DNA of 55,633 bases from Natrinema versiforme JCM 10478 (GTDB lineage Archaea; Halobacteriota; Halobacteria; Halobacteriales; Natrialbaceae), in the NCBI RefSeq assembly GCF_000337195.1, contig NZ_AOID01000026.1, positions 172,923 to 228,555 on the forward strand, read 5' to 3'. How positions within the stretch are numbered: position 1 is the first letter of the stretch; every line of letters starts with the position of its first letter. Shown here in pieces: positions 26,332 through 35,287 of the stretch. Made by a program: the position numbers and the translations under genes. The notes beneath the pieces were generated by a model. That model made no database searches. It saw only the letters and a program-made list of their open reading frames with translations, and was not told the DNA's origin.

Positions 26332-26431
26332 CGGCGTCGCTACCGGTCGGTCCCGCGAGACCCGCCCGACGGTGACATCTCCTGGTGTTCGAGTCGCAAT
26401 CTTTATTCGCCACCCACGGGTAGCGGGTCCT

Positions 26432-26524
26432 ATGGCGGTAGGTAACGCCGAAATCGATGAAGCGGATCGCAAACCCACGTCGGGATCGCCACTCCGCTTT
26501 ACACGGGCGTTTGCCCGCTTCTAA
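26432..26524 (+). CDS. Possible leaderless 30-aa ORF in the thrS leader
   Basis: Begins ATG GCG GTA GGT and encodes 30 residues ending FTRAFARF, stopping at TAA 26522-26524. A TATA-like CTTTATTC at 26401-26408 sits at exact leaderless distance. The ORF lies within the folded region upstream of thrS, so it could be a regulatory leader peptide or simply a fortuitous frame over a structured RNA. It has only two Thr codons, which argues against classical attenuation. Confidence 0.35.
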   Translation: MAVGNAEIDEADRKPTSGSPLRFTRAFARF

Positions 26525-26532
26525 CACCTACC
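26437..26532 (+). ncRNA. Structured 5' leader of thrS (candidate cis-regulatory RNA)
   Basis: Can fold into a closed multibranch structure: outer stem GGTAGGT (26437-26443) with ACCTACC (26526-26532), an inner stem AAGCGGA (26460-26466) with TCCGCTT (26493-26499), and a hairpin CGGGC-GTTT-GCCCG (26504-26517). Inside the second stem a CCC-ACGTC-GGG hairpin exposes CGU, the complement of a Thr codon. The promoter at 26401-26408 would give thrS a leader of about 170 bases, and no TATA element is seen closer to thrS. It is not a tRNA: there is no T-loop or D-loop consensus. Confidence 0.5.
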
Positions 26533-26602
26533 TACCCCCGTCTCGTCGCAGACACCGATCAGCGGCGTCTCCAGCACCACCCACGTCACACCTACACAAC
26601 CA

Positions 26603-28552
26603 ATGTCAGAATCAGACTCACAGGACGGAATAGCGGTCGTACTGCCCGACGGTTCGGAACTCGCGGTCGATGCCGACGCCACCGTCGAGGACTGCGCCTA
26701 CGAGATCGGGCCCGGCCTCGGAAGCGACACCGTCGCCGGCAAACTCGACGGCGACCTCGTCGCCAAGGAGGAGCCGGTCTACGACGGTGCCGAACTCGAG
26801 ATCATCACCGACGGCAGCGAGGAGTACCTCGAGGTCATGCGCCACTCGGCGGCGCACTGTCTCGCACAGGCGGTCGAACGGCTGTTCGACGAGGACGCGG
26901 TCAAACTCGCGATCGGCCCGCCGACGGACGAGGGCTTCTACTACGACTTCGACGACCTCGACGTCGACGAGGAGGACCTCGCCGACCTCGAGGACGAGAT
27001 GGAGGCGATCATCGAGGCGGACTACGACATCGAGCGCGAAGTCGTCTCGATCGACGAGGCCGAGGAGCGCCTCGCCGATGAGCCGTACAAACTCGAACTG
27101 CTCGAGGAGTTCGCCGAGGACAACGACACCGTCACGTTCTACACGCAAGGCGAGTGGGAGGACCTCTGTGCCGGCCCGCACGTCGACTCGACGGGCGAAA
27201 TCGGCGCGATCGAACTGCTCGAGATCGCGGGGGCCTACTGGCGCGGCGACGAGGAGAACACGATGCAGACCCGGATCTACGGGACCGCCTTCGAAGACGA
27301 GAGCGACCTCGAGGCGTTCTTAGAGCGCAAGCAGGAGGCCGAGAAGCGCGATCACCGCCGGATCGGCAACGAGATGGACCTCTTCTCGATTCAGGACGTG
27401 ACCGGGCCCGGACTGCCGCTGTATCACCCCTCCGGGAAGACCGTCCTCTCGGAACTCGAGGACTTCGTCAAAGACCTCAACGAGGACGCGGGCTACGACT
27501 ACGTCGAGACGCCCCACGTCTTCAAGACGGACCTCTGGCACCGGTCGGGCCACTACGAGAACTATCAGGACGACATGTTCATCTTCGACGTCGGCGACGA
27601 CGAGTTCGGCCTGAAGCCAATGAACTGTCCCGGCCACGCCGCCATCTTCCAGGACCACTCGTGGAGCTATCGGGACCTCCCGATCCGCTACGCCGAGAAC
27701 GGCAAGGTCTACCGCAAAGAGCAACGCGGCGAACTCTCCGGGCTCTCGCGAGTCTGGGCCTTCACGATCGACGACGGCCACCTGTTCATCCGGCCCGACC
27801 AGATCCGACAGGAGGTCGAGGAGATCATGGACATGATCACCGACGTCCTCGAGACGTTCGACCTCGAGTACGAGATGGCGCTTGCCACCCGGCCCGAGAA
27901 GTCGGTCGGCTCCGACGAGATCTGGGACCGCGCCGAGGAGCAACTCGAGAACGTCCTCGAGAACCGCGCCCACGACTACGAGGTCGAGGAAGGTGACGGC
28001 GCGTTCTACGGCCCGAAGATCGACTTCGCGTTCGAGGACGCCATCGGCCGCTCGTGGGACGGCCCCACCGTACAGCTGGACTTCAACATGCCCGAGCGGT
28101 TCGACCTGAACTACGTCGGCGAGGACAACGAGGAACACCGCCCGGTCATGATCCACCGCGCGCTCTACGGCAGCTACGAGCGGTTCTTCATGATGCTCAT
28201 CGAGCACTACGAGGGCCGGTTCCCGCTCTGGCTCGCGCCCGAACAGGTCCGCGTGCTGCCGATCTCCGACGATAACCTCGGCTACGCCCACCGCGTAGCA
28301 AACGAGTTCGACGACTTCCGTGTCGAGGTCGACGGTCGCGACTCCACCCTCGAGCGGAAGATCCGCGCGGCCCACGACGACCGCGTGCCGTACCAGATCA
28401 TCGTCGGCGACAACGAGGAGGACGACGGCAACATCTCCGTCCGGGACCGCTTCGAAGATCAGGAGTACGACGTCGAAATCGACGAGTTCCGCGCGCACCT
28501 CGAGAGCGAAATCGAGGAACAGCGGACCCAGCCGGACTTCCTGCAGGACTGA
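26603..28552 (+). CDS. thrS: Threonyl-tRNA synthetase, bacterial-type
   Basis: 649 aa. Domain order is TGS (about 8-70), the editing domain with HSAAHCLAQ near 84 and [10 protein letters not shown] near 190, then the class II catalytic core (motif 2 near [18 protein letters not shown] at 370, motif 3 around 510-535 ending [13 protein letters not shown]) and an anticodon-binding domain from about 550. The presence of TGS and the N2 editing domain makes this the bacterial form rather than the DTD-like archaeal form. The start ATG at 26603 begins MSESDSQDG. It lies 70 bases after the folded leader, whose structure could control it. Confidence 0.96.
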
Positions 28553-35066: not shown

Positions 35067-35287
35067 TGTATTCTCCGCGGGCGTTTGCTGGTTCAATCCC
35101 GACCGGGGCCGAGCCCCGCGGATCACATCCCGACCTGTGGCGGCGGTGCCGTACAGGTGCCCGCTGATGCCCGCGAACCAGCGAGTCTACTCACCCTTCC
35201 CAACTCTCGAGTATAAGGGCTTCGAACTCCGTGAGACGCCGTGCTAGCTGTTCCCGATGGGGTCGCTCGACCGCGGCTGACTGCTGG

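Follow-up and report, generated by a model that had tools for sequence, protein, structure and literature searches.

A candidate ribosome-operated attenuator upstream of threonyl-tRNA synthetase genes in haloarchaea

The threonyl-tRNA synthetase (ThrRS) gene thrS of Natrinema versiforme JCM 10478 is very likely preceded by a regulatory leader, because the cis element upstream of it is conserved, shows covariation, and is dedicated to thrS. From comparison with related genomes, we lean toward reading this leader as a translation-coupled attenuator of thrS that senses charged tRNA-Thr(UGU). We give roughly even chances to the wider view that it represents a haloarchaeal ribosome-operated attenuator, in which a leaderless mini-gene would sense the charging of rare tRNA-Thr and set ThrRS output, and which would have persisted in several families and stands, in one genome, in front of a ThrRS gene of archaeal type. 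The leader lies in a stretch of 55,633 nucleotides that is called the window here (contig NZ_AOID01000026.1, positions 172,923 to 228,555, forward strand).

Results

A preliminary description of this DNA had proposed three stems of 7, 7, and 5 bp upstream of thrS. All three are present (Table 1), and minimum-free-energy folding of the window leader yields each of them. The 109-nucleotide (nt) core at 26432-26540 folds with −41.4 kcal/mol, compared with −29.7 ± 3.7 kcal/mol for dinucleotide shuffles (z = −3.16; 3 of 200 shuffles as good), and the stems therefore stand above chance; the whole 202-nt leader folds less distinctly (z = −2.1). Overlooked in the preliminary description was an upstream open reading frame (uORF) that begins at the expected transcription start, 26432, and whose stop ends at 26524, just 5′ of the 3′ strand of the outer stem. 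The downstream gene product contains TGS, tRNA_SAD, tRNA-synt_2b, and HGTP_anticodon domains (Pfam). A scan for sigma-70 promoters, which is not relevant to an archaeon, found none.

Table 1 Features of the thrS leader in the window
Feature	Position	Strand	Basis or remark
TATA-like box TTTATT of the thrS transcript	26402-26407	+	Sequence; uORF AUG 30 nt downstream
Putative leaderless uORF, 30 codons, MAVGNAEIDEADRKPTSGSPLRFTRAFARF, then stop	26432-26524	+	Sequence; relatives carry homologues of 10-15 codons
Segment A, 5′ strand of outer stem P1, GGUAGGU	26437-26443	+	Fold, covariation
Middle stem and loop, GAAGCGGA (26459-26466) with UCCGCUUU (26493-26500)	26459-26500	+	Insertion, window genome and G062 (L178) only
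In-frame rare codon pair UUU-ACA, Phe23-Thr24 of the window uORF	26498-26503	+	Invariant among relatives
Inner hairpin P2, CGGGC (26504-26508), loop GUUU, GCCCG (26513-26517)	26504-26517	+	Loop varies among relatives
uORF stop codon UAA	26522-26524	+	Sequence
Segment B, 3′ strand of P1, ACCUACC, directly after the uORF stop	26526-26532	+	Fold; compensatory change in L178
Segment B, alternative register	26530-26536	+	
Possible segment C, CGGCGU, 6-bp alternative partner of ACGCCG (26445-26450)	26563-26568	+	Weak in window
thrS, bacterial-type ThrRS, 649 aa, presumed regulated gene	26603-28552	+	Pfam domains

The sampled genomes closest to the window form one genus, and several records of the same loci are named Natrinema. 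Relatives carry a compact homologue upstream of thrS, ACGATGGTAGGTGTCCGCTTTACAGGGGCGTTTGCCCGTTTCTAACTCCCACCTACCG, which encodes the typical short form MVGVRFTGAFARF; further short uORF peptides in relatives are MVGVRFTRRAHARF, MLGDCFTRRVLAR, MAGVHFTGRAFARF, and MAGDCFTGGPRAP, each followed by a stop codon like the typical form. A motif search that tolerated one mismatch found this homologue in 127 of 392 Halobacteriales genomes, spread over 38 of 95 genera and always with a single match per genome; the reversed control pattern had no match in the same search. The element is present in about a third of the sampled Halobacteriales. A covariance model built from 44 distinct leaders gave matches in 144 of the 392 genomes at E ≤ 0.1, a count that includes weak matches, nine of which (L279-L287) were inspected and judged false. 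These nine (E of 4e-5 to 0.03), together with L293 and L294, were set down to chance on account of apparent coding sequence or a missing motif. Strong matches number one per genome, and all of those whose surroundings were inspected precede a ThrRS gene. The variants in the window and in G062 score weakly with this model because of their insertion. In a draw from the whole phylum, the covariance model returned nothing credible outside Halobacteriales.

In one genome (G297), the leader precedes an archaeal-type ThrRS gene, which encodes the archaeal editing domain PF08915 (E = 1.5e-46) and is not of the bacterial type. The leader therefore appears to follow function and not one gene family. We also found genomes that hold two thrS genes (L112-L119 and L130-L131; genera g50 and g66). 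Of the two copies in g66 (family f5), one is leaderless, as thrS is in its relatives, and the other bears the leader, which suggests horizontal transfer of thrS together with its leader. The leader L147 (G109) carries, between P2 and segment B, an insertion containing a long inverted repeat, which sets the P1 strands about 90 nt farther apart than usual; a uORF is still open there and B is intact.

The loop on which the preliminary description had built its tRNA analogy fared differently from the stems. In the window, CGU sits in a small CCC-ACGUC-GGG loop within the middle stem, and it had been likened to the tRNA-Thr-like arm with a CGU loop that ThrRS binds in its own mRNA in Escherichia coli. 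About 51 nt of the window uORF, this loop included, are missing in all sampled relatives except G062 (L178), and L178 has no CGU; moreover, the loops of the conserved inner hairpin vary (UUUC, UCUC, UCAU, CCUU, UUGC, and GUUU). We rejected the CGU anticodon mimic because of its restriction to this lineage-specific insertion. What survives of the proposed autoregulatory RNA is a cis element that is conserved, covaries among relatives, and is dedicated to thrS; what is lost is the anticodon-arm mimic.

These observations also bear on an autogenous operator, in which free ThrRS would bind the folded leader as a tRNA-Thr mimic and block thrS translation. E. coli ThrRS offers a precedent (PMC6542539), the haloarchaeal leader is structured, covarying, and dedicated to ThrRS genes, and two ThrRS architectures that recognize the same tRNA are both preceded by it. 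However, the leaders have no conserved CGU or NGU loop, given the varying P2 loop and a CGU segment confined to two genomes, one of them without CGU. The invariant part is instead a single-stranded in-frame codon pair, and an operator would leave the uORF and its fixed start position unexplained; we consider this reading unlikely.

In 98 of the 107 leaders that have a recognized TATA box, this box precedes the uORF AUG by 30-33 nt. In leader-bearing genomes, the uORF AUG occupies the position of the thrS AUG in leader-free haloarchaea: in 22 relatives without the leader (families f4, f5, and f12), the thrS AUG follows the TATA box by 29-31 nt, and thrS itself looks leaderless. The codon pair TTT-ACA (Phe-Thr) is in frame and invariant in 122 leaders, an invariance that is partly built in since TTTACA was required when these leaders were collected. 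Genuine leaders added by the substitution-tolerant covariance model (L275-L278) also keep UUU-ACA in frame, and both divergent long forms (L001 and L178) retain it. ACA is the rarest threonine codon, accounting for 12 of 1140 Thr codons (1.05%) across 56 thrS genes, and TTT makes up 64 of 1569 Phe codons (4.1%) in the same genes. Of 122 leaders, 121 have a frame-0 stop no farther than 33 nt downstream of UUUACA, compared with 0 and 14 for the other two frames; the stop codons and their positions differ between families.

Between AUG and UUUACA, leaders differ in length only by multiples of three (+3 in L120, L276, L277, and L278; +51 in L001 and L178), and in L120 the AUG has become ACG with a replacement AUG one codon upstream. 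Indels in the linker beyond the stop tend toward multiples of three as well, which weakens this frame argument, and we gave less weight to frame preservation when taken by itself as proof of coding. Codon positions 1, 2, and 3 carry 51, 33, and 55 minor alleles. With so weak a third-position bias and a drifting sequence, we do not claim a functional peptide; the ORF and its codon pair look to be under selection, and the peptide sequence does not. As in leader-peptide attenuators, we find a short upstream ORF with its own start and stop and a conserved codon for the cognate amino acid (ACA, Thr), although only one such codon is fixed.

Could UUUACA be recognized as RNA? The window genome has a tRNA-Thr(UGU) gene whose anticodon loop reads CUUGUAA, and UUACA is complementary to UGUAA in this loop, so that five pairs are possible. 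In a T-box-like riboswitch, uncharged tRNA-Thr(UGU) would pair with UUACA and stabilize one fold with the uORF untranslated, which fits the invariance of UUUACA as RNA and not only as protein. Rfam 15 gives a best match in the window leader of E = 0.93, far below the gathering score, and no match at E ≤ 0.05 in ten relatives. (Elsewhere in the window, on the minus strand at 35085-35157, Rfam matches the eL15-Euryarchaeota ribosomal protein leader RF03144 with 38.6 bits.) A T-box-like reading is thus faced with the lack of an Rfam T-box match, with the lack of a conserved UGGN acceptor-binding bulge, the candidate nucleotides for which vary, and with a reading frame and start whose conservation it does not explain. 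We regard it as very improbable.

Much of the conservation is at the RNA level, comprising a YRY pattern before UUUACA as well as P1 and P2, and the peptide drifts. Both would suit a leader that binds a protein or metabolite and in which the ORF is incidental, such as a threonine riboswitch or the target of an RNA-binding protein at UUUACA and P1. Such a leader would hardly call for an AUG at the leaderless position, an in-frame stop in 121 of 122 cases, length changes in multiples of three, or a codon, ACA, for the very amino acid that the downstream enzyme uses, and we think it a poor candidate.

P1 pairs segment A, within nt 2-14 of the uORF, with segment B just past the stop. Its registers differ by lineage: GGUAGGUG/CACCUACC, GGUGACUG/CAGUCACC, GGUGGCU/AGCCACU, GGCAGGUGUCUG/CAGACAUCUGCC, and CAGUAGGUG/CACCUACUG. 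The preliminary description had made its leader depend on compensatory changes in the stems, and these were found among relatives for the combined P1 and P2 structure. In alignment A1, 77.7% of its cells pair, compared with at most 47.9% when slid; 25 cells are changed on both sides, compared with 12.6 in shuffles, and the covariation score lies above all 500 shuffles. Within P1, U-A is replaced by C-G at one pair (seven sequences), and another pair occurs as U-A, A-U, or G-C. P2 is retained among relatives with a variable loop. RNAalifold on A1 placed a small hairpin within A in place of P1, which we rejected (−1.9 kcal/mol; its pairs never change on both sides).

L178 is the sole relative that has the long form. 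Compared with the window, its outer stem reads GAGAGG/CCUCUC in place of GGUAGGU/ACCUACC and its middle stem GAAACGG/CCGUUUU in place of GAAGCGG/CCGCUUU, and both differences are compensatory. The minimum-energy fold of L178 contains an overlapping middle stem instead.

In most Natrialbaceae, segment A has a second complement, segment C, which mostly lies 17-80 nt upstream of the thrS AUG (GGUGUCCGC/GCGGACGCC). C changes along with A, as in GUGUCCGU/ACGGACAC, GGUGUCUGC/GCAGACACC, and, in family f10, GUGGCUAC/GUAGCCAC; covarying pairs include CCGC/GCGG, CCGU/ACGG, CUGC/GCAG, and GGCUAC/GUAGCC. A:C spans 8-9 bp in most Natrialbaceae, compared with 6 bp in the window. A leader's own A outscores other A variants as the partner of C in 71 of 96 leaders. 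Shuffle P values for A:C in single leaders range from 0.005 to nonsignificant, and P is ≤ 0.01 in each of eight Haloarchaeobius-type leaders. The energies of A:B and A:C lie within 5 kcal/mol of each other in 42 of the 65 leaders that have C. The two helices are candidates for mutually exclusive structures between which the position of a ribosome could select: A:B covaries throughout, whereas A:C covaries in Natrialbaceae, is absent in some families, and is weak in the window. At L241 (G145, genus g9), A:B is nearly lost and a 9-bp A:C is kept, a natural test of which helix matters; L304 (G199, same genus) has the same sequence at the uORF end.

We did not find A:C in families f7, f4, and f3. 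Most leaders in these families have, at their end just before thrS, a Shine-Dalgarno-like site with which B could pair, an arrangement that would predict the opposite direction of effect. Pairing of B with the Shine-Dalgarno site was rejected as a general switch, since it amounts to 4-5 bp and follows nearly automatically from CACC/GGUG. Across the collection, 105 of 122 leaders, Natrialbaceae leaders among them, have no Shine-Dalgarno-like site before thrS. In most leaders, C, at its distance of 17-80 nt, does not directly cover the AUG.

The lack of a Shine-Dalgarno-like site in most Natrialbaceae leaders would also suit a uORF that senses no threonine and hands ribosomes on to thrS, through either coupling or re-initiation, or that stabilizes the mRNA. 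Yet the distance from uORF stop to thrS ranges from 42 to over 300 nt, and neither the fixed rare Thr codon nor the covarying alternative helices would be explained; we give this reading scarcely any credence.

Discussion

The comparison of sequences gives good support to the architecture of the leader: the uORF, its fixed rare codon pair, the covarying P1, the complementarity of A and C in Natrialbaceae, and a leader dedicated to thrS. From it we infer translation of the uORF, stalling, an effect on thrS and its direction, and control that is translational rather than transcriptional. The order A, UUU-ACA, P2, stop, B, C, thrS would suit a switch set by ribosome position.

In the attenuator that we favor, transcription would begin at position 26432, where the uORF AUG lies, or a few nucleotides from it, and a ribosome would initiate on the leaderless uORF. 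Segment A could then enter either of two mutually exclusive helices, A:B (P1) or, in Natrialbaceae, A:C in the thrS 5′ untranslated region. In the short form, which is the common one, ACA (Thr; uORF nt 19-21) comes directly after A. When charged tRNA-Thr(UGU) is scarce, a ribosome stalled at UUU-ACA would cover A, neither helix would form, C and the thrS start would be accessible, and thrS would be expressed. When tRNA-Thr is charged, the ribosome would reach the stop at about nt 40-42, covering B and freeing A, and the A:C helix could then form and reduce thrS initiation. The model predicts more ThrRS when charged tRNA-Thr(UGU) is scarce, which is the sensible direction. The presence of a tRNA-Thr(UGU) gene in the window genome speaks for this model.

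Several features weigh against this attenuator, among them the missing A:C helix in families f7, f4, and f3, the distance of C from the thrS AUG, the drifting peptide, and the indels in threes beyond the stop. Only a single Thr codon is fixed, where bacterial leader peptides usually have several. In the window, A:C spans just 6 bp, and the 51-nt insertion puts A about 55 nt from ACA, out of reach of a single ribosome stalled there; the middle stem, moreover, has the UUU in its 3′ strand. This variant would need queued ribosomes or melting of the middle stem. The separation of A from ACA is the weakest point of the attenuator reading for the window itself.

No T tract of 6 or more lies between uORF stop and thrS in any of the 122 leaders (one has 5), which makes a T-tract terminator unlikely. 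We rejected a transcription terminator, having found neither long T tracts nor a terminator-like site.

Ribosome-mediated attenuation by leader peptides operates in E. coli at thrL, trpL, and hisL and, for a synthetase, at pheST. Among known systems, bacterial leader-peptide attenuation is what the haloarchaeal leader most resembles as a working likeness: both would combine a short upstream ORF, a rare cognate codon, exclusive helices, and a product tied to the amino acid. Unlike those attenuators, the present candidate is archaeal, its uORF sits at the expected transcription start and would be leaderless, it has one invariant codon pair and no run of codons, and, having no T-tract terminator, its output is probably translational. 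In translational attenuation of the ermC/ermB type, too, stalling on a uORF switches the helices that govern the next start. Here, however, the signal would be tRNA charging and not an antibiotic, and in most leaders with A:C there is no Shine-Dalgarno site that could be hidden.

The E. coli thrS operator is likewise a structured leader before thrS, and feedback on the same enzyme would be the shared purpose, but in haloarchaea a uORF stands in place of the conserved anticodon-like CGU/NGU loop and ThrRS binding is putative. A Gram-positive thrS T-box would share with our leader the sensing of tRNA-Thr charging before the same gene, and UUACA could pair with the anticodon loop of tRNA-Thr(UGU); the haloarchaeal leader differs in having no Rfam match, no acceptor-end-binding bulge, no terminator, and a codon in a conserved reading frame. 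Taken as explanations, a ThrRS operator and a T-box are both less likely than the attenuator.

A second synthetase gene has a leader of its own. In Natrialbaceae, valS is preceded, about 110 nt before its start, by a conserved leader with GGATGTATTGTCGCCGACCAGCATTCAC (loci L312-L317 and L373-L402, outside the window); GGATGTATTGTCGCCGACCAGCATTCAC matches in 57 of 382 Halobacteriales genomes from 15 genera. This leader holds a short ORF such as MYCRRPAFTEQRPLYGR, ending in a stop codon. In genomes with the valS leader, the genes for IleRS, ProRS, SerRS, TyrRS, and TrpRS look leaderless. A CCGACCAGC-like motif, often a GCUGG...CCAGC hairpin, occurs past segment B in the thrS leaders of several families (examples are window 26546-26566, L132, and L143) and also in the valS leader.

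A map of transcription start sites in Haloferax volcanii found 72% of protein-coding transcripts to be leaderless, and structured leaders are regarded as untypical of haloarchaea (PMC4983044). Our full-text literature search, with most subscription literature outside its scope, gave no archaeal counterpart among the matches listed. We know of no earlier archaeal case of a translation-coupled attenuator sensing charged tRNA-Thr. If the proposed reading is true, archaea use translation itself to sense amino-acid supply, and leader-peptide attenuation would exist without Shine-Dalgarno initiation on the leader.
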